64,000 bases of DNA, from assembly GCA_963920765.1 (NCBI GenBank), contig OY987243.1, positions 19,773,419 to 19,837,418 of the forward strand, read 5' to 3'. Below the pieces are notes generated by a model. The model made no database searches. It worked only from the letters and a program-made list of their open reading frames with translations, and was not told where the DNA came from. Below, in pieces: positions 11 through 62,509 of this stretch. The stretch is from Ulota crispa. Its lineage: Eukaryota > Streptophyta > Bryopsida > Orthotrichales > Orthotrichaceae. Position 1 is the stretch's first letter; every line of letters begins with the position of its first letter. The translations under genes and the position numbers were made by a program.

Positions 11-2055
11 ATGTATTGCGAAAAAAACCTTTGTGAAAATATTTTGAAGACAACATTTGGAGAGAAAGACTCAGTAGCAGTCAGGGCAGATATGCAAGCA
101 AGACAAATTTGCCCCAATCTTCATTTGCAAAGAGTTCTTAGTCATCTAGAGAAATATTACATGCCTGATGCACCTTACATGTTAACTCCAGAAGATAAGA
201 AGAAGGTGTTATATGTTTTGAAGTCTTTACGCACTTCAACTTATTATACAAGTACTATACATACAAAAATCAACAAGGGGAAGTTAAGTGGTAAGAAATC
301 TCATGATTTTCATGTCCTTCTATAATAGATATTGCCACTATGTTTTTGTACAATTTCTAACAAATCTCTAGCTAAGTAGTAATCTGTTTGAGTAGAGTTT
401 TCCAAAAAATTTGTGCTAAAACAATAGACTATGACAGTAAAGACCTGCTAATGGCAGAGTGTGTAGAGACCATGTGTATGGTAGAGAAGGTGATGCCTCC
501 TTCATTTTTTGATATTATGTCTCACTTGCCAAACCATCTGGTGGAAGAGCGTTTTTTGCTTGATCTTGTCCACACCAAATGGATGTATCCTTATGAATGC
601 TATTTCAAGACATTAAAGGGTTATGTTAAAAATTTGGCTACACTTGAGGGAAGCATTGCTCAAGGCTATCAAACTAAAGAGGCTCTAGGGTTTATAACTG
701 AGTATATGTCTGAGTATAACATTACTTCAAGAAGAGTGTGGGACGACAAGGAGGACCCAACAATGGTGGACAAGATTGTGGAGGGGAAGGGGAAGAAGAG
801 GACGTTATCACTTGAGTTAATGAATGCAACGCACAAATTCATTTTAGACAACGCAATTCATCTAGAGCCTTACAGGAGGTGAGACTTTATTTTCTCTTAA
901 AGTGTTTATTTTCTTTGTAGCAATGGAAGCAAGGCATTAATACAATTGAATCAGTACTATTAGAGTTGATAATACAATGTACATGTATAACAGCTATAAT
1001 GATTTCCATGAACTACCTAATACCAGATGAACAAAGCAGTTGTTAGTACTGCTTATAACTTTGGATGTGTAATGTTAGTGTTGTGTAAAGGTTAGTAGTA
1101 CTTGATTTTCTTACCAAATTATTTGTGGAATTCATGTTCTTTAGTTCTAAGGTCTTTTTATGATTGTGATGAAGGTCATATGAAGAGATATGGCAGAACG
1201 GAACTGTTGCAAGAGCGGAGTTTTGAACCAGACATTTGCGGAGGACTGGCCGCAGATGGGTGTCGTATCTTACAAATTTAGAGGAAATTCCTCCCTTCTT
1301 AGAATGGATTATAGGAGAGATACAAACCGCTCAAGAAAATGGCTTGTCAATTCCTAAAGATGTTGTGGCATCCTCAAAAGCACCATCTTTAATTGCACGA
1401 AAATTCAGAAGCATGTACGTTTATGGATACCACTATAAGGTTAAAAGTGCCAAGGAGAATATCACAAGGACTTGCATTTCAAGGGTGGCTGCAATTTTTT
1501 TAAAGACCCCGTGAGTCTGGCAGACGCGATATGAACTCGGTTGATGCATTGCTAAAGTACATAGGGCAAATTCTAGAGATAGTGGAATTGAACTATGGAC
1601 AACATTGTACTCTATTGCTAGTATGTGAATGGGTGAAGGCAAATTATAGGGGAAGAAACGCAACTGTGAAGAAGGATGAATGGGGATTCACCATGGCCAA
1701 CTTCAACTTGAAGATTTCTTTTGGCTATGAATCATTTGCTTTCCCTGTGCATTGTGCTCAAGTTTTCTTCTTTGATGTTGAGGAGGAAGCAGGTTGGAAG
1801 ATAATCTTACATAATGAGGTTCGAGGTCGAAGAGTGGACAGCGCAGAAGATGAGGAAATGGAACCCGAGATGTTCAGAATGGGCAAAAATGTAGACTTTG
1901 CTGGGCTTCATGATCATCCGTCAGATGGTGATGCAAATGCGGCCCCCATTCAAACTGGCCAAAACATCCAGATCAATGAAGTCATCAGAGAAGCGACCCA
2001 GGAAGAAGCCCCTATTTTTTATCGAGATCTTGGAGAATCCTCCAATGACGACTAA
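11..2055 (+). pseudogene. CACTA (En/Spm, TNP2-like) transposase, C-terminal half, decayed
   Basis: Several frame-broken pieces follow the order of a plant CACTA transposase downstream of its catalytic domain. Bases 11-325 match the linker region, ending in KSHDFHVLL (family: KSHDCHVLL). Bases about 400-882 carry a DUF4218-type block, with MPPSFFDIM, WMYPYECYFKTLKGYVKN, EGSIAQGY and EAL. Bases about 1236-1514 and 1531-2055 carry a DUF4216-type block, with YGYHYKVKS, ILEIVELNY, CEW, GFTMANF and AQVFFF. A plausible donor follows codon 880 (GAG|GTGAGA), so 883-1235 may be an old intron. After HVLL the frame runs into TAA TAG where the family has Gln codons, then shifts. The element enters from beyond the left edge. 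It is dead as read; family assignment is firm, exon limits are not. Confidence 0.85.
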
Positions 2056-35693: not shown

Positions 35694-37055
35694 ATGGGAA
35701 GGCCTCCAGCTTACAATAGGGTATCGGAAGGAGGACTCAACAAAGGGCCTTGGACTGAAGAGGAGGACGCCATTCTGGCTGCCTTCATCAAGGCAAATGG
35801 AGAAGGGAATTGGCGCACTCTCCCCAAACTCGCAGGTAATGAAATAAGTACGATTCATCATGCTTGGCACTATTACCTGTTCAATTCCTAATATTCAGTC
35901 ATTTTAGAAGCCAGATTCAATGTAGTGTAAACAACCGCTGCACTGGAGGCTGAATCCATGGGTGAAATTGCAGGATTGCACAGGTGTAGGAAGAGCTGCA
36001 GGCTACGATGGATGAATTATCTCCGACCAGATCTGAAACGGGGCAACTTCTCGCCTGATGAGGATGAGCTCATCGTCAAATTACATTCTCTTCTGGGAAA
36101 CAGGTGTTGCAACGCTAAAGTTACTATCCTTTCAGATTCAGCCCCATCTCTATCGTCAGATGTAGCAATCCCTGGCCAATTTGGTAGCTCTGTTCTGGAA
36201 CAAAGTTCATAGACAGCTGACTGCTTAGAGGCACACATAAAATGTACATGTCTGCTACATCCTCTCCATAGCATGAAAAAGCAGGTGTCCCAAGATCAGC
36301 AGTTTCTACCCTCAGCTAGCTTGTACTGGGAGAGCGTGGCCTCCCCAGAAATGACCTAACCAAAAAAATCTGATGTCTTGTTGTGCAGGTGGTCATTGAT
36401 CGCAGGTCGCATTCCCGGTCGAACAGACAACGAGATAAAAAACTATTGGAATTCTCGGTTGCGTCGTAAGCGAAACACTGGGCTAGGCGGCTTAGTCGAG
36501 GCCACAAAACTTTCTTGCTCAGCTTTGGATTCGGTTGTTACCAGCTCCAGTGGTCTCTCTATCCCAACTGACCACACCACAAGCTTCTCCTGCGACACAA
36601 TCGCAGAACCCTCATGTTCTGGTCATGCCGAAGGGCTGGCAGCTTCAAGCTCCTTGGACGTATCCATGCTTCAGGAGTATTCCGGAATCCATATATCCGA
36701 CAGTAACCCCGCTTCAGGACCCTGCAGCAGTAGCGATATGACAGCTTGTCGAGAGGATGGGTCAGACCACCAGTCTCTTGAAGCCGGGTACTATTCTTCC
36801 TGGACATCTGTGGCTACAGACCCTACTGCAGACTCGGTAAAGCATGAATCGGATGCATCCTCACCGGGGAGTGTTCTGCCACAGGGGCTGGATTTGGAAG
36901 AAGATTTCTCCTGCACTGACTTCATCAGCTTCGCCAAAGGCTTGGCTGATCTCGGGGAGGCCAACTGCCGAAAGCTTCTTTATCCGATGCCCCTATCTCC
37001 GATGCAGAAGAATCTGGTCACCATGTCATGGCCGGCGGATACCTTCTGGTCATAG
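35694..37055 (+). CDS. R2R3-MYB transcription factor, three exons, bHLH-interacting type
   Basis: A DNA-binding regulator acting in the nucleus. Exons 35694-35835, 35974-36103 and 36389-37055 join in phase to 312 residues. The two introns fall at the canonical R2R3-MYB positions (after KLAG in R2 and inside GNR|W in R3). R2 tryptophans are W20, W40 and W60; R3 has F73, W92 and W111. The recognition helices are intact ([34 protein letters not shown]). The bHLH-binding signature [DE]Lx2[RK]x3Lx6Lx3R is complete (E79, L80, K83, L87, L94, R98), which in plants marks MYBs of MYB-bHLH-WD40 complexes controlling flavonoids or epidermal traits. The tail is Ser-rich with an acidic LDLEEDF stretch, a candidate activation region. 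Target pathway cannot be read from sequence. Confidence 0.95.
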
Positions 37056-44423: not shown

Positions 44424-46429
44424 AAATGCTTGAATAGGAATGCCAATAGACCCATGTTGTCATATTCGTGGATCAAATGGCAAGCTTTCAGAATTTCGGG
44501 ACTATTGAAGTCACCAGTCTGTGACTTCACATCTGATCCAGTCCTCGATTCTAGAGGGCTATGCATGCACTTAAATGCCACCATTGTAGAGTGCTCTGGA
44601 CTCACTGGGCCAACTCAACACATATGACTACACAGATCTACAGGAGTGCATTCCTCAATCATGAAAAATTCAAGGATGCACAAAGATCAGGTCAAGTCAT
44701 CCCTACATGAGATGGGTTAATAAGCGCTCTCGCATCGGAACCTCTCAGTCTCGAGAAAATGTCGTACACTCACAAAACACATCTGCTTTGCCCAAGATCA
44801 CAGCTTCTCTTCATGTTAAATTCTACCCATTGAGGAAAACGAGCTTGGAAAGAAATCTCCTCTTTGCCACAGCTTCTTCATACAGAGTCATGCCGGATAC
44901 TCCTTTCCGGACAAATGGTACGAAACCTTCGCAATGGACATCGACGGTTCTTGCAGTGTAAGGATGTACCGGTCATTCGAATCATCCACAAATTCTTCTT
45001 CAATCACTGCATTTCATCAGTCCAACTTCGACATAGTCATCATTTTAACCCCTAAATCCCTGGGGCCTTTATTTTGTCAAAAGATACTCAAAATTGTCAT
45101 TTCTATTGCAAAGAGTAAACAAATCTGAAAATTGGTCTTTTTGCATATCTAACCATAGGATCTTGTACTAAAGTAGTATGAGAATGTGGGAACAAAAATT
45201 CAAAAACTTTGACCACACAGATTGCAAGATATATGCATTCAAAGTGTAAAAAACAGACTTTATTGCACCTTGCATGACTAGACTATTTGACTTTGAACTT
45301 TTTTAACCTAAAATTTTTGCACCACAAAGTTTTGAGGTTTATTTTTGTATAGTGGGAAATTGAGTTGAGAATCTTTGGAAAAAAATCAAAACAAAAAATA
45401 GTTAATTTTCATTCTTAAAAAAAACATTAGGTAGAAGAAGGTATGAGATTGAACAAAAACTTAAATTGTTAATAACCTTGCAATGGAATTGAAACTCAAT
45501 AATCCCAATGGTGAAATTGTTCTAGCAAGCAAACTTCATCCTCTCCAACAATTTTTTTGAAAAATAGTTAAACTTGCATTCAAAAATGAAGTTTATAAGT
45601 TATTTTTTCAAGAAGATGCTTGAACTACCCAAAAAACAAGATTGTCCATAACTTTCTCATAACTAGTCCAAATGGAATGGATCAAAGCTTCAGATGTAGA
45701 CAAAACTATAACCTATGAGAAAAAAAAACAAAAATTAAAAAAGTTCAAGTTTTTGTGAATTTTTTTGCTGCCCAATTTGCATAAATTTTTGCTTATATGG
45801 GCATAACTTTTGCTTTTGGGCATTGATTGGAATATAAATCATATTCTCCAAAAGCTAATGTATTTTCCTATCTTCAAAAAAAATTCAAAAAATCAGAACA
45901 AAAATTGAGAAGGTAGGTACCTGCCCAAAATCCCATTTGTCCCCCGAGAAGACACTCAGGGATTTAGGGGTTAATAATGAAAGACTCCAAACGAGGTAAT
46001 AAAGCACCCAGCTTGGAATATCCAGGGGTTAAGCCTTTCAATGCGATTTTACCCAAAAGCGTAAAAAGGTCTGAGAGGTTCTAATAACGTACCCCGTTCG
46101 CTTTGAGAGCAAATTGTAGAATGGACTTAGCCCTAATCACTCAAAACGGGATACGTGATCCGATTACGACTCGATAAGGAATATTGCTGTTCATCTTTTA
46201 CTGAGGTGACGATGTTAGTGTTCCCCGCAATCGCGCTGGTGCAGTCGATTTGCAAAACGATTCCAATGCTGAGAGCAGCCTGCTTGTAGTTCTCTGTCAT
46301 CCGACGTCGTGTACAGAGAAAGCTATCTCCGGCAGCTTCATCCGGTTGAAAAACAATCACCATGTCATCGCACCCCTTTGAGCTGGTGTCCTGTGACATT
46401 TTTGAATGCAGGCGGGCATGGCCCACCAA
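44424..46429 (-). other. Conserved coding-like tail of the lectin-TIR locus
   Basis: Beyond the TIR exon the minus strand holds blocks conserved in the duplicate at 39.2-40.5 kb. First, 46429-46133 is open in a frame one base off the TIR frame and contains DDMVIVFQPDEAAGDSF and NYKQAALSIGIVLQIDC. Adding one T to a five-T run (46432-46428) would join it to the TIR exon. Next, IPSWVLYYLVWSLSLL ends at about 45975, where the 930-bp MITE interrupts the block. Then KEEISFQARFPQWVEFNMKR lies near 44,860-44,800. I do not recognise these domains. They may be further exons, or relics if the gene now ends at the TIR stop. Confidence 0.5.
45045..45974. mobile_element. TTAA-flanked MITE (piggyBac-like), 0.9-kb subfamily, copy 2
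   Basis: The left end TTAACCCCTAAATCCCTGG and the right end CAGGGATTTAGGGGTTAA form a 16-bp inverted repeat, with TTAA at 45045-45048 and 45971-45974. It is an inverted homologue of 26827-27744. The duplicated genomic segment at 40.06 kb reads straight through a single TTAA at the same place, which dates the insertion after the duplication and fixes the element's limits. Non-coding. Confidence 0.95.
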
Positions 46430-48921
46430 AAATCTGACTTCCAGCTCCTCTCTTTGCGCAGAATCGTGTCAACTGCTTCACATACTCTATTTGCGTATTC
46501 TTGGTCGTGATCGCGTCTTAATGCGACGTATGGAACCCCTCTTTGTGTGCAAAGATATCTCACTGCAGCTGTACACCTTTCGATTGTGAGTGGGCGCGTG
46601 CCCCTATTCATTGCATCCCAATGATTTTCCCAAGTGTTTGCTTCCAGATGCGCCTTTACATCGTCAGGCGTGAGCTCGTAGAACAGGGGTAACACTCGAA
46701 TTCTTCCGTTCAACGCAGGCTGGGTCTGTTGTGCTTCCACAAAAGCGATCAGCTCTGTCATGGGCCACTTCCTCTCAAAGAAGTCCTTGGTGACGACCAC
46801 GATCCCCACGTCAAATCTCGCTAATTCTCTACCGATGTCATCCGCAAAACCCAAGCCCATTTCGCAATTTTTTTGATCGAAAAAGATTTTGACACGAAAC
46901 CTGAACTTGGACCAGCGCCTTCTTGTCATCATATCATTCAGCCAAATTGGAAAGTTTTTCAGTGATCCATCTGGACCACCTGTGTGTGAGATAAAAACTC
47001 GAAAAGGTCGTCTCAAACCGACCCACCGACAAAGCGAACAGGGTATGCAAGCCACGGCCACCAAAACTCCGATGGAAACTCCGAAAGTTATCCATAGCTT
47101 CTTTTTACCCCGCCCACCCGCTGGCGGTGCAGCTGGAGGAGCAATGGGTGGGATGAAAGGTGGAGGATTGAAAGGATTAGGAGGATTGACCGGTGGAGGA
47201 CTGATTTCAAGTGGAGAAGGACTGCTGCGGGGCGAAGGAGTCGGTGGTACAGGTGAAGGTGGCGGAGGAGCTTTTGCTGGACCTGCTTTTAATGATGACA
47301 AACACAACAATTTCCAACATGTCACATATTTGAACATTTTGTAGCTACGAAAATTATCCCAACAACACGCTGAATGATCACAGGGCATCACAAATGTAAG
47401 CATTTCACTCCTTCCTGAGATTCATTGCACGTTGATGCACTCCAGTTATTTACCATTGATATCGAAACCCAGTAAGTTATAGTCTATCATTCTGCTCTTA
47501 TCTAGACCTGGTTCAACGATATGTCCTACTGTGGGAAGTCAAAGATTTAGCACTCACTGAGGGCCTGAGTGTACATACACAATCACTAAACACGTTCACG
47601 TATTATTCATGACCATCATTAAGGTATAGTTAGGTGCTACAAGAACACCTTTTAACCACTGAAGGGCCCTTGAGCTCTAGAGATACGGTACCAAATACGG
47701 TCGCAACCAATATTCAGAAGTTTGAATTAGTTGGAAATTAAGTGTTACAACCATACATATTGAAGGATTGGACAATGGTGGGTGCATATTTTTTTTTGAA
47801 AAATCCTCATAGCAGCTCAAATACGGCTTTACATACGGCCACAGATGCCGATGGGCCGTTCAGGGGTTAACCACACCATAAATTTCAGATGCTACAGGGA
47901 TGGGGCTAGGTGGAATCATACCAGGTGGAGGTGCTTGAGGTCCAGGGCTCGGCGGTGAAGGATAGCTTATATCTGGAGGTGGAGACGGTGCAGCTGGCGG
48001 AGCCGCTTGGTTAATATAAATAGGTGGGGCAGGAACACCATCGTTGCTATAGCTCCATGCGAAAACAGCCGGGTCATCTATATACGTGCCAGTTGAGAAT
48101 CCGATGTACATGCTCTCCTTCAAGTACGACAAATCGACCAACAATTGCGATCCTTGTGGCTTGTCAGGTTTGGCTTGCCCGTAGTACCCAGAGTAGATAT
48201 CCATAGCAGAGGTGGCTCCAGTATACTCGATCCAGATTTGCTGGTATTGGACTGTACTTTCCGAGGCTAGGATAAAGTCCGGCTTGATCAAATGAGACGA
48301 AATCATGCTTGCTAAATTAACTCCAATATGATTGTCGTTGGGATCACCAAACATTGTGTCATTGTGAGTGTCCAATTCCACAGCAAAGGTGTAGTTGTCA
48401 GATTCATAGTTCTTTGTTGTATCCGAGGTATCCGTGGTTATAACTCCCATGTAGCCTGCAGATCCTCCAATAGTAACATTGTCAGGAACTATGATGAAGG
48501 CTAGACCAGGACCATTAATGCCTGAAAACGAAGCCCGCATTTGATAGATGAATGAGGTACTGAAAGATTTGACTGCCGTGGCCCCAGGATCTTTCATTTG
48601 CACTGCGCTTGGATGCAAAAATCGACCAGCGTCGGTGATCGCACCATAGGAGAAACATCGAGAATCGGGGTCAAAAATCCAGCTGCTATCTCCTACTATA
48701 TATACATCCGTTTCGCTGAAGCCACTGTTCGCAAACGTGATAGCTCCGACGCCGCAGTTACAAGGCAAGGTCAGAATAAGTGCCAGCACACCCAAACAAA
48801 ACTCCTGAGCCCCTGCTGCTTGGACGCTGGATCTTCTTGACAATTTGCCCTTGGAAGGGGTTTCGGATCTCGATCTCCTTGTTTCCGCGTGGACTTGCTG
48901 ATAGGAATCTTGCAAGGCCAT
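46357..48921 (-). CDS. Lectin-TIR receptor-like protein: legume lectin, proline-rich stalk, TM helix, TIR
   Basis: Two exons (48921-47922 and 47282-46357) joined at CTG|GTATGA...AAAGCAG|GT keep the frame (both phase 1) and give 641 residues. Order: polar N-terminus, hydrophobic signal or anchor (41-56), legume-lectin domain (about 62-292), proline-rich stalk (about 297-388), basic GRGKKK, TM helix (396-414), TIR domain (about 426-560). The lectin metal site has concanavalin A spacing (E182, D184, D188, D193, H198), but the usual sugar-binding Asp is P138 (GPGLAF). Three NxS/T sites occur. TIR landmarks are FRVFISHTGGPDG, KIFFDQ, VGIVVVTKDFF and KWPMTEL. By analogy with lectin receptor kinases it should sense ligands outside and signal through TIR inside. 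An alternative phase-1 donor lies at TATG|GTGTGG; upstream exons and a different end remain possible. Confidence 0.75.
47652..47870. mobile_element. TTAA-flanked MITE, 0.2-kb subfamily, inside the lectin-TIR intron
   Basis: The ends TTAACCACTGAAGGGCCC and GGGCCGTTCAGGGGTTAA are inverted repeats with TTAA on both sides. The body aligns with 59918-60129 (GATACGGTACCAAATAC, ATTCAGAAGTTTGAATTAG, ACATATTGAAGG, GGTGGGTGCAT). It lies between lectin and TIR exons. Its right end supplies the last codons and stop met if the intron is retained. Confidence 0.9.
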
Positions 48922-59917: not shown

Positions 59918-60129
59918 TTAACCCCTGAACAGTCTGAAAGCCCTTTGCAGCCGTATGTACAATCGTATGTATAGACATATTTGAGTTACTCTGAAGGCTT
60001 TCCAATTTTTTTAATGCACCCACCATCATACAACCCTTCAATATGTATGGTAGCTGATTCGAACTTCTGAATATTGATTGCCACTGTATTTGGTACCGTA
60101 TCTCCAGCCCAAGGGCCTTCAGGGGTTAA
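59918..60129. mobile_element. TTAA-flanked MITE, 0.2-kb subfamily, copy 2
   Basis: The ends TTAACCCCTGAACAG and CCTTCAGGGGTTAA are inverted repeats with TTAA at 59918-59921 and 60126-60129. It is an inverted homologue of the element in the lectin-TIR intron. Non-coding. Confidence 0.9.
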
Positions 60130-60417: not shown

Positions 60418-61477
60418 GTACGTCGCGTTTTCTGTTTCAGCATAAAGACAGACTTTACTTTGACAGCAGACGAAGTCACTCGATTATGTGTACAGGGAGA
60501 CTGTTGAAAGGAAACTTTCTGAGTCTTTAACGTATTCTCATAATGATGTTTCTTTTACATAGCTAGATTTAAGTCCATCACTTGGATCCAAACCTCATCT
60601 CATATTGACTTCTGAAGCTTTCTGATCAATTCAATGAGATGCGATGTCAGTTTGTGTCCTACTACCACTACTCAGCTTGCAGGCTAGAGCTGTCTGTCAA
60701 TGAAGGTGTAGCTGCATGCACTCGGACATCTTGCAGCAACTTATGTCTTTGCAGGGCCCGCAATGCTTGCATCCTTTGAACGCTCTATGCTACTCCCTCG
60801 GTAGTATTCAGCTACACAGTTGGTTGCTTTGAACCCTACCTCATGAGTAGCTGTTAGCAATTCACAACAACTGTGGTTGATAATCTGTCACTTAGTATAA
60901 TGCCGGTCATTTGATTTTCTCAGTGAATTGTCCATTTATCGATTCAGAACGCCGTTGGCAGGGGTTGGTCTACAGCTTAGTCACTTACACTGGAACGGTC
61001 TATCACCCTTCCCAAGGCCAAAGAGGTAGGTAGTTTGTTTAAGCATCTCAGAAAACTGGAGATAAAAATAGCAGCATTGTAACGTTTTGAGTAAGTAAGG
61101 TCATTCGCCATAGCTGCAATCAGTCGTAAATGCTGTTAACTATTGGGCAGTGAAAAAACGATGTGAGGCTAGTTCTCCTCGTTTCTACAGTATCGGTCAA
61201 TGTCTCTCCTACGCTGCCAAAATCTTTTATCTTTATGATTGATTGTCTAGAGCTGCGGCTACCAAATAGGTTCTTCCCTTGAACTGGATCTGTCCATAAC
61301 CTTTCCTGGAATGGGAGGAGTTGTCAGTTATAGGAGCTTGAGTGTTTTTTGAACCCAACAATCATTGAGTAGAATACCAAATTATATTCAAAGTTGTGGA
61401 AAGTGAAAGGTCAACTGAGAGCATTGTACCTATTCTATAAAATAAGCTTAGTTACAGGCCATAGCTGTGCATTGAAC

Positions 61478-62509
61478 ATGGATTATAAGTTTCTCAGCCA
61501 TTGCTTCCGATGTCTGATCTGGTTCGCCTTTCTGCATTTCTACACAGAAGCCTCGCCATGTCCCAGGATCGAACCCGATGCTTGCAAGGTTCACCAGTCT
61601 AATTTCGGTGTGTCTGCTTTGAAGACTACTATGCAGTCTTTACCAACAACTACGGAAGACGCCGCGGCTGCACCGGTCTCACCATCTTGCAACCAAGGAG
61701 AGCGTGGCAGCAGTGTTGCTGAAATGACGGGCTTTCCTACTGAAAACGATGAAACTGGCATTGCAGAAGAACTAGCCCAGGTATTCAAGCTTCCATCATG
61801 TCCTTCTGAAAACCAACGTGAAGGAGAAAACGCAGATGGTGTTATCCAATCTGTGACTAGTAGCAGTATTGCTTTGGAAACAAAGCCGAGTTACAGCCGC
61901 AGCTGCAACAGCAACCCTAATTCGGGGATGGCAGATAACCAGGTGCTTCTGGTGCAAGCTCGAGATGACAAGCTCCCCCTACAACAGAATATTTGTTCTC
62001 TAGAAATGCAGCAAACTATGACGGAAGAAAGCGCTTCTGATTCCGACCCTGCCTTTTTTTTACTACTCCCCACAGAGATGGCAGGTCAACAAATGCTGGT
62101 TCATGACTGTCCAGCAACTGCAAGTAACGGTGATGCTGGTGTTTTTGAAACTGAACTACGAAAGAAAAGCAAGCGCCCTGGATCTGGCACACCCAGCCGG
62201 CAACATAACACCATTCCACTGGCAGATAATTTGCGTAGCTCAGTTGCGGAGACAATGTCCGCTACTATTTGTCAGCTTGGGACTCAAGCTGATGTTTCTT
62301 TGGGTTTGGAATTAGTTAACAAGGACCTCGCAAGTGGTGAGTGTCAGGTACCTGCAGCAGCTTCCGGTGGACAAGTTCAGGAATTAGCTGCAAGAAATGG
62401 AGACGATGGTGGATCTTTTGATAAAATCGAACCAAGCCATTTGCAGAGTGTTTTAGCTAAAGGTTCCAAGAAGCCAGGGAGCGGTGGATCCAGTAAAGGA
62501 CACAACTGA
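61478..62509 (+). CDS. Unrecognised protein, Ser/Gln/Asn-rich, with a repeated SKxPGSGxxSxxHN tail
   Basis: This is the longest uninterrupted plus-strand frame outside the named genes: 343 residues from the ATG at 61478, and open further upstream. If that ATG is used, residues about 8-22 are hydrophobic and could be a signal or anchor, followed by SPCP. If the acceptor TACACAG before 61548 is used, the protein instead begins inside the frame and has no such segment. The body is hydrophilic, low in complexity and probably disordered. Two related motifs occur: SKRPGSGTPSRQHN near residue 235 and SKKPGSGGSSKGHN at the extreme C-terminus; SSVAE also occurs twice. I know no family with these features. 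It is probably a genuine last exon given its length and composition in AT-rich DNA. Confidence 0.55.
   Translation: MDYKFLSHCFRCLIWFAFLHFYTEASPCPRIEPDACKVHQSNFGVSALKTTMQSLPTTTEDAAAAPVSPSCNQGERGSSVAEMTGFPTENDETGIAEELAQVFKLPSCPSENQREGENADGVIQSVTSSSIALETKPSYSRSCNSNPNSGMADNQVLLVQARDDKLPLQQNICSLEMQQTMTEESASDSDPAFFLLLPTEMAGQQMLVHDCPATASNGDAGVFETELRKKSKRPGSGTPSRQHNTIPLADNLRSSVAETMSATICQLGTQADVSLGLELVNKDLASGECQVPAAASGGQVQELAARNGDDGGSFDKIEPSHLQSVLAKGSKKPGSGGSSKGHN

Follow-up and report, generated by a model that had tools for sequence, protein, structure and literature searches.

A candidate lectin-TIR transmembrane receptor in the moss Ulota crispa

In flowering plants, surface receptors signal via kinases, and TIR proteins work intracellularly. 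Animal Toll and Toll-like receptors consist of an ectodomain, a single transmembrane (TM) segment and a cytosolic, C-terminal TIR domain. A moss gene that appears to join a legume lectin to a TIR domain on the latter plan is located in a stretch of 64,000 nucleotides (nt) of the Ulota crispa genome (contig OY987243.1, positions 19,773,419 to 19,837,418), hereafter the window. Its predicted product of 641 amino acids (aa) belongs to a small lectin-TIR family and is probably, with a probability of roughly 0.6, a plasma-membrane receptor of type I, in which a TIR domain that hydrolyses nicotinamide adenine dinucleotide (NAD+) would take the place of the kinase of L-type lectin receptor kinases (LecRKs) and generate a nucleotide signal for defence.

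The plant TIR-lectin proteins of the literature are of the TIR-Nictaba type, e.g., PP2-A5, as far as the accessible parts of the two sources go (PMC12355970, PMC5485960). A soybean protein containing a signal peptide and GNA, S-locus, PAN, TIR, NB-ARC and LRR regions represents a different architecture (accessible part of PMC6272470). Short extra regions, e.g., transmembrane ones, are reported in the accessible text of PMC9153377 for some of the TIR proteins of prokaryotes, oomycetes, plants and animals, and the word lectin is absent from the main text of this and a further paper on plant TIRs (PMC9806590; term count 0 in both). A survey of receptor-like kinases and receptor-like proteins (RLPs) in 350 genomes uses a scheme in which a lectin-TIR protein would be classed among the L-lectin RLPs. 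In that survey, 2.1% of the endodomains of this class matched a Pfam pattern, and the accessible part names no TIR among them (PMC10834447). The first-pass annotation of the window knew of no such receptor in plants, and no description of the architecture was found in the open-licence PubMed Central literature. Seed-free plants contain TIR proteins and lack EDS1, according to the accessible parts of PMC9153377 and PMC11218826.

Domain layout and gene model

From the N-terminus, the predicted protein comprises a signal-like segment, a legume-lectin domain, a stalk rich in proline, a single TM helix and the TIR domain. Pfam detects Lectin_legB at residues 96-299 (E = 9.7e-35), TIR at 462-543 (E = 4.4e-5, above the cut-off) and TIR_2 at 429-542 (E = 6.4e-6, slightly below its cut-off), while no kinase, NB-ARC, LRR or TPR match was obtained in the 641 residues at E values of up to 1. 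Kyte-Doolittle hydropathy reveals two hydrophobic segments, at residues ~36-60 and 394-424; the former is interpreted as a signal peptide and the latter as the single TM helix proposed in the first-pass annotation. The central claim of the first-pass annotation, one lectin-TM-TIR protein whose TIR sits at the position of the LecRK kinase, is supported as an architecture by the Pfam matches and by two other loci with a single open reading frame (ORF) each.

The 641-codon frame lies on the minus strand and joins two exons of 1000 nt and 926 nt across a phase 1 intron (GTATGA...AAAGCAG) with proline-rich coding sequence on each side (Table 1). The first-pass annotation had given the correct coordinates and splice sites (donor CTG/GTATGA, acceptor AAAGCAG/GT), and the joined translation confirms its description of a stalk coded in two parts that flank the intron; the splice itself is predicted. 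GTATGA and CAG/GT are, as judged by eye, the best-looking sites among the joins tried. The start of exon 1 aligns with that of a paralogue on contig C9 (tblastn, residue 4 of L002 at position 48918). The lectin-TIR fusion does not depend on this splice, because the C9 paralogue and P0001, a protein from another source, carry both domains in one uninterrupted ORF.

The intron harbours a repeat, unnoticed in the first-pass annotation, that resembles a miniature inverted-repeat transposable element (MITE), inserted past the first 51 nt of the intron. This repeat is dispersed: a search that scored 40 of 2044 candidates gave at least 42 genomic matches besides the repeat itself. It contains the stop codon of the exon-1 frame, which would end that frame if the intron were retained. 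A divergent copy of the element is present at window positions 59964-60129.

The lectin-TIR family

Searched with the TIR region of the protein, the moss genome (274.8 Mb, 157 contigs) yielded 24 matches including that of the window gene, the best other one being located on contig C9. The C9 paralogue is a single intronless ORF of 1082 aa, comprising a signal-like segment, a legume lectin (Pfam E = 6.6e-44), a short proline-rich stalk, a TM segment and a TIR-like domain that aligns with the window TIR over its whole length. Behind the TIR, the paralogue continues for another 472 residues (L002:2200-3615), which contain three hydrophobic segments and match no Pfam family; the window gene and P0001 end ahead of this extension.

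P0001 shows the same domain order in one frame of 538 aa (Lectin_legB, E = 1.4e-42; TIR, E = 3.1e-7) and is 55% identical to the window protein, and 59% in the TIR domain. It is nearly stalkless, indicating that stalk length is variable in the family. The first-pass annotation would have counted the absence of the domain combination from all related genomes against its idea; P0001 has the combination. P0001 was the sole match in a protein search with the window TIR (475 candidates scored), and no relatives were found among 1294 candidates with the C9 TIR. An alignment search of the 7985 candidates sharing most words recovered P0001 and three lectin-only pieces, P0002 to P0004, which could be either genuine proteins with a lectin alone or first exons; P0002 and P0003 have a proline-rich tail.

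Two lectin-TIR genes, those of the window and C9, were found in this genome. The lectins of the window protein and P0001 had no tblastn match at E <= 0.01 in 30 of 36 TIR (PF01582) loci with flanks of 1.5 kb, a screen that is blind to a diverged lectin or to exons more than ~1.5 kb apart; five of the other six PF01582 matches (the sixth being that of the window gene), as well as C4:5328243 and the 758-codon frame C2:35925047-35925814 (two lectin matches), lie outside it. None of the TIR queries matched in 14 further lectin loci. A weak lectin match at C6:13174662, ~5 kb upstream of a TIR gene, was rejected as a lectin-TIR gene because it belongs to a broken fragment resembling a LecRK, and the TIR of that gene has a P-loop frame after it (by eye) and a ZZ finger before it.

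Phylogenetic trees were calculated for 29 TIRs and 13 lectin domains, with support given as ultrafast bootstrap / SH-aLRT (Shimodaira-Hasegawa-like approximate likelihood-ratio test). The TIR tree comprises the three lectin-TIRs and 26 other TIRs of the genome; of 30 loci, L036, L039 and L055 (short or broken) and one duplicate were dropped. The lectin comparisons include seven of the 14 further lectin loci, among them three of the five with kinase motifs (L012, L013, L016, L020, L021). The three lectin-TIRs form a TIR clade of their own (98/99), apart from the 26 other TIRs, in which the window protein and P0001 are paired (99/93). The same three lectins group together (88/99, the 88 being below the program's mark of 95), again with the window protein and P0001 as a pair (96/92). 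P0002 to P0004 adjoin this group (87/100 for the six together), and the three LecRKs are further off. The tree program flagged long branches, the C9 TIR among them. Both trees have the topology (C9,(window,P0001)), and their agreement indicates a single fusion that was inherited as a unit. This fits one fusion, followed by a duplication that would predate the split of the two sources.

Codon position 3 differs more often between the window and C9 genes than positions 1 and 2, both in the lectin domain (0.48 vs 0.25 and 0.26, 236 codons) and in the TIR core (0.51 vs 0.34 and 0.32, 119 codons), as expected for a protein under constraint. The excess is also seen over fewer codons in the N-terminal segment (0.42 vs 0.31 and 0.34) and in the stalk (0.68 vs 0.47 and 0.38), but not in the TM segment (0.60 vs 0.67 and 0.37) or in the C-terminal part (0.52 vs 0.54 and 0.42).

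Ligand, signalling output and competing explanations

All 13 aligned lectins retain the metal ligands E182, D184, D193 and H198, and their spacing in the window protein recurs in 11 of the 12 others, L017 having two extra residues. The intact metal-binding spacing that had been noted at first sight is therefore borne out. Within the metal loop, the window protein has H186 and D188 where most rows have tyrosine and asparagine; histidine and aspartate are shared by three other rows. At the loop-A position of the aspartate, which we take to be the monosaccharide-binding residue, the window protein has Pro138. Proline occupies this site in all six lectins of the clade, and the other seven rows have aspartate (all three LecRKs), alanine (one) or serine (three); a crystallised seed lectin also has aspartate here. 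The replacement makes classical monosaccharide binding doubtful and leaves the proposed sugar or glycan sensing unsupported; a simple sugar in the classical binding mode is an improbable ligand. A structural model of exon 1, built from the 13-row alignment, reached a mean predicted local distance difference test (pLDDT) score of 76.2, and its 50 listed Foldseek matches are all legume lectins (best E = 8.4e-17).

In the TIR domain, E510 is the glutamate of the WxxxEL motif in helix alpha-C, presumably the catalytic residue. All 20 TIRs of the alignment have it (those of the window protein, P0001 and C9, plus 17 from further loci in the genome), and it is aligned with the glutamate of AT1G72930. 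The title of structure entry 7s2z, 'E100A mutant ... RUN1 bound to NAD', agrees with a catalytic role of this glutamate. The model adopts a TIR fold, the nearest structures of which are the TIRs of plant nucleotide-binding leucine-rich-repeat (NLR) proteins. It scores higher against these than against animal TIRs, and also resembles the TIRs of MyD88 (Foldseek E = 9.5e-4), MAL and IL-18R, with SARM1 at E = 2.9e-3; animal TIRs may still be kin. Proximity to plant NLR TIRs together with a catalytic-type glutamate makes NAD+ cleavage likelier than adaptor docking in the manner of Toll.

In the favoured reading, the protein would reach the plasma membrane with its lectin domain in the apoplast and its TIR domain in the cytosol. 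Once a ligand binds to the lectin, or clusters the receptors, the TIR domains would come together and could then cleave NAD+ via E510 and produce a nucleotide signal for defence. The TIR domain would thus stand in for the kinase of a LecRK. A more specific version, to which we give somewhat less than an even chance, is a plant-built Toll-like receptor whose membrane-bound TIR NADase would be activated directly, with no kinase involved, by an extracellular ligand; instead of a sugar, this ligand might be a nucleotide, for example NAD+ or ATP. Perception at the cell surface and TIR signalling, which normally form separate tiers in plants, would then be united in one molecule. A lectin-TIR receptor would represent a direct and testable link between the two tiers. 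With the C9 paralogue and P0001, it belongs to a small testable family and is no lone oddity.

Several observations weigh against this reading. The splice is predicted, and of 112 GT/AG pairs that were tried within the stalk region, 30 keep the frame open, so that the open frame supports this particular join only weakly. The signal peptide was judged by hydropathy, and the region ahead of its hydrophobic segment is long (~35-40 aa). The charges beside the TM helix leave the orientation undecided. Model confidence is middling, with pLDDT values below 50 at lectin residues 165-174 and at exon-2 residues 139-144, which form the BB loop. The C9 TIR diverges around this same loop and scores poorly in Pfam (TIR_2 at E = 0.088, no TIR match reported), and the known members number three, from two sources.

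An arrangement of two neighbouring genes, i.e., one for a secreted lectin that terminates at 47860 and another for a TM-TIR protein with its start upstream of 47282, would explain why both frames stay open beyond the proposed splice sites, the exon-1 frame stopping at 47860, and why the exon-2 frame has upstream methionine codons followed by a short hydrophobic stretch (by eye). It is nevertheless very improbable, considering that the C9 paralogue and P0001 carry the same order uninterrupted, that the lectin and TIR trees agree, that the proline-rich composition runs across the junction and that the stop codon of exon 1 sits in the inserted repeat. At the level of the family, two separate genes are contradicted by the two other loci with both domains in one ORF. 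One gene could also give rise to two products, a membrane receptor from the spliced mRNA and a secreted soluble lectin ending in ...IYGVVNP upon intron retention. The retained frame adds more of the proline-rich tail before it stops, and lectin-only relatives with such a tail exist in P0002 and P0003, though these are possibly first exons; conservation of the extra tail lacks support, however, and retention is itself hypothetical, making a second product quite unlikely.

Other alternatives concern the function of the protein. The TIR domain could act without NADase activity as a scaffold that recruits other TIR proteins, as in animal Toll signalling, consistent with the TM receptor plan and with the fold similarity to MyD88, MAL and IL-18R. 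The divergent BB loop region of the C9 TIR also suggests that at least this copy may be non-catalytic. The conservation of E510 in all three members and the proximity to plant NLR TIRs argue against a scaffold, which we consider unlikely. There is a slim chance that the gene is a decaying or silent relic, unexpressed or blocked in splicing by the repeat that follows the first 51 nt of its intron. The unusual residues of the metal loop would suit a relic, though three other rows share them, while both exons are open across 641 codons, the position-3 excess over the C9 paralogue is present in both domains and the TIR has retained its similarity to P0001.

Table 1. Positions of the gene, its domains and its paralogue (window coordinates unless a contig is named).
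Feature	Position	Strand	Basis
Exon 1: start Met, signal-like segment, legume-lectin domain, first half of proline-rich stalk	47922..48921	-	
Exon 2: remaining stalk, TM helix, TIR domain, stop	46357..47282	-	
Intron, 639 nt, GT-AG, phase 1, predicted	47283..47921	-	
MITE-like repeat inside intron, ~219 bp, imperfect terminal inverted repeats starting TTAACC	47652..47870	-	
Hydrophobic segment, residues ~36-60, probable signal peptide with long n-region	48742..48816	-	Kyte-Doolittle; helix 30-51 in model
Legume-lectin domain, residues 61-299	48025..48741	-	Pfam, alignment, model fold
Proline-rich stalk, exon-1 part	47923..48024	-	
Proline-rich stalk, exon-2 part	47110..47280	-	
TM helix, residues ~395-413 within hydrophobic run 394-424	47044..47100	-	Hydropathy; model helix exon-2 residues 59-88
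TIR domain, residues ~425-612	46447..47010	-	Pfam, model, structure matches
E510 codon	46753..46755	-	Aligned with glutamate of plant TIR WCLDEL motif
C9 paralogue (L002)	C9:6117991-6121239		

Elsewhere in the window, a MYB-type DNA-binding exon (36360-37052, plus strand; Pfam E = 3e-7) and a 378-codon open frame with no Pfam match (61373-62506, plus strand) were detected. Frames for DUF4218 and DUF4216 at 376-2052 (plus strand) are presumably parts of a transposon-like gene. On contig C6, ZZ zinc-finger, TIR and P-loop frames (the last NB-type, by eye) follow each other on one strand (L042, C6:13178434-13180825) and possibly form one ZZ-TIR-NB gene; TIR frames similar to that of L042 occur on C6 and C10. 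A broken L-type LecRK-like gene fragment in two frames (L064, C6:13174400-13174850) is located ~5 kb upstream of this ZZ/TIR gene. Contig C5 contains a cluster of closely related TIR exons at ~4.6-6.2 Mb (KHKVFLCHSGEQKDFVE...), some with internal stop codons. L011 (C3:15315844) is a 404-codon frame encoding a legume lectin with a proline-rich tail and a hydrophobic C-terminal end, possibly anchored by glycosylphosphatidylinositol.

Comparison with known receptors and TIR proteins

The window protein shares with LecRKs and L-lectin RLPs the Lectin_legB ectodomain, a proline-rich juxtamembrane stretch and a single TM segment. The flank of the TM segment reads GKKVGIIAGVSSGV in the LecRK-type loci L012 and L016 of this genome, and GKKKLWITFGVSIGV in the window protein. 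Because of this resemblance of the TM region (GKK...GVS.GV), an origin from a LecRK-like receptor whose kinase gave way to a TIR domain is plausible, although the similarity is short and may be due to chance, and the lectin tree leaves the lectin-TIR lectins outside the LecRKs. Unlike LecRKs, the protein has a TIR domain instead of a kinase, a lectin that falls in a clade apart from the three LecRKs compared, and proline in place of the sugar-binding aspartate.

A plant NLR-type TIR with the WxxxEL glutamate is common to the window protein and to TIR-NBS-LRR, TIR-NBARC-TPR and TIR-only proteins. The window protein differs in having no NB-ARC, LRR or TPR match and in its C-terminal TIR, which lies behind the TM helix. 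Arabidopsis PP2-A5, a TIR-Nictaba protein termed a 'TIR-lectin two-domain protein', likewise combines a TIR with a plant lectin domain and is linked to defence, but its TIR is N-terminal, its Nictaba/PP2 domain belongs to a different lectin family and no TM segment is named in the accessible part of the source (PMC12355970).

The overall plan is that of animal Toll and Toll-like receptors, with a legume lectin rather than LRRs as the ectodomain. The analogy to Toll drawn in the first-pass annotation holds for this plan only; the output probably differs, since the TIR is nearest to plant NLR TIRs and has a catalytic-type glutamate. The resemblance appears to be one of plan only and does not imply common descent. 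A lectin outside and a TIR domain inside the cell would represent an independent arrival at the Toll plan.

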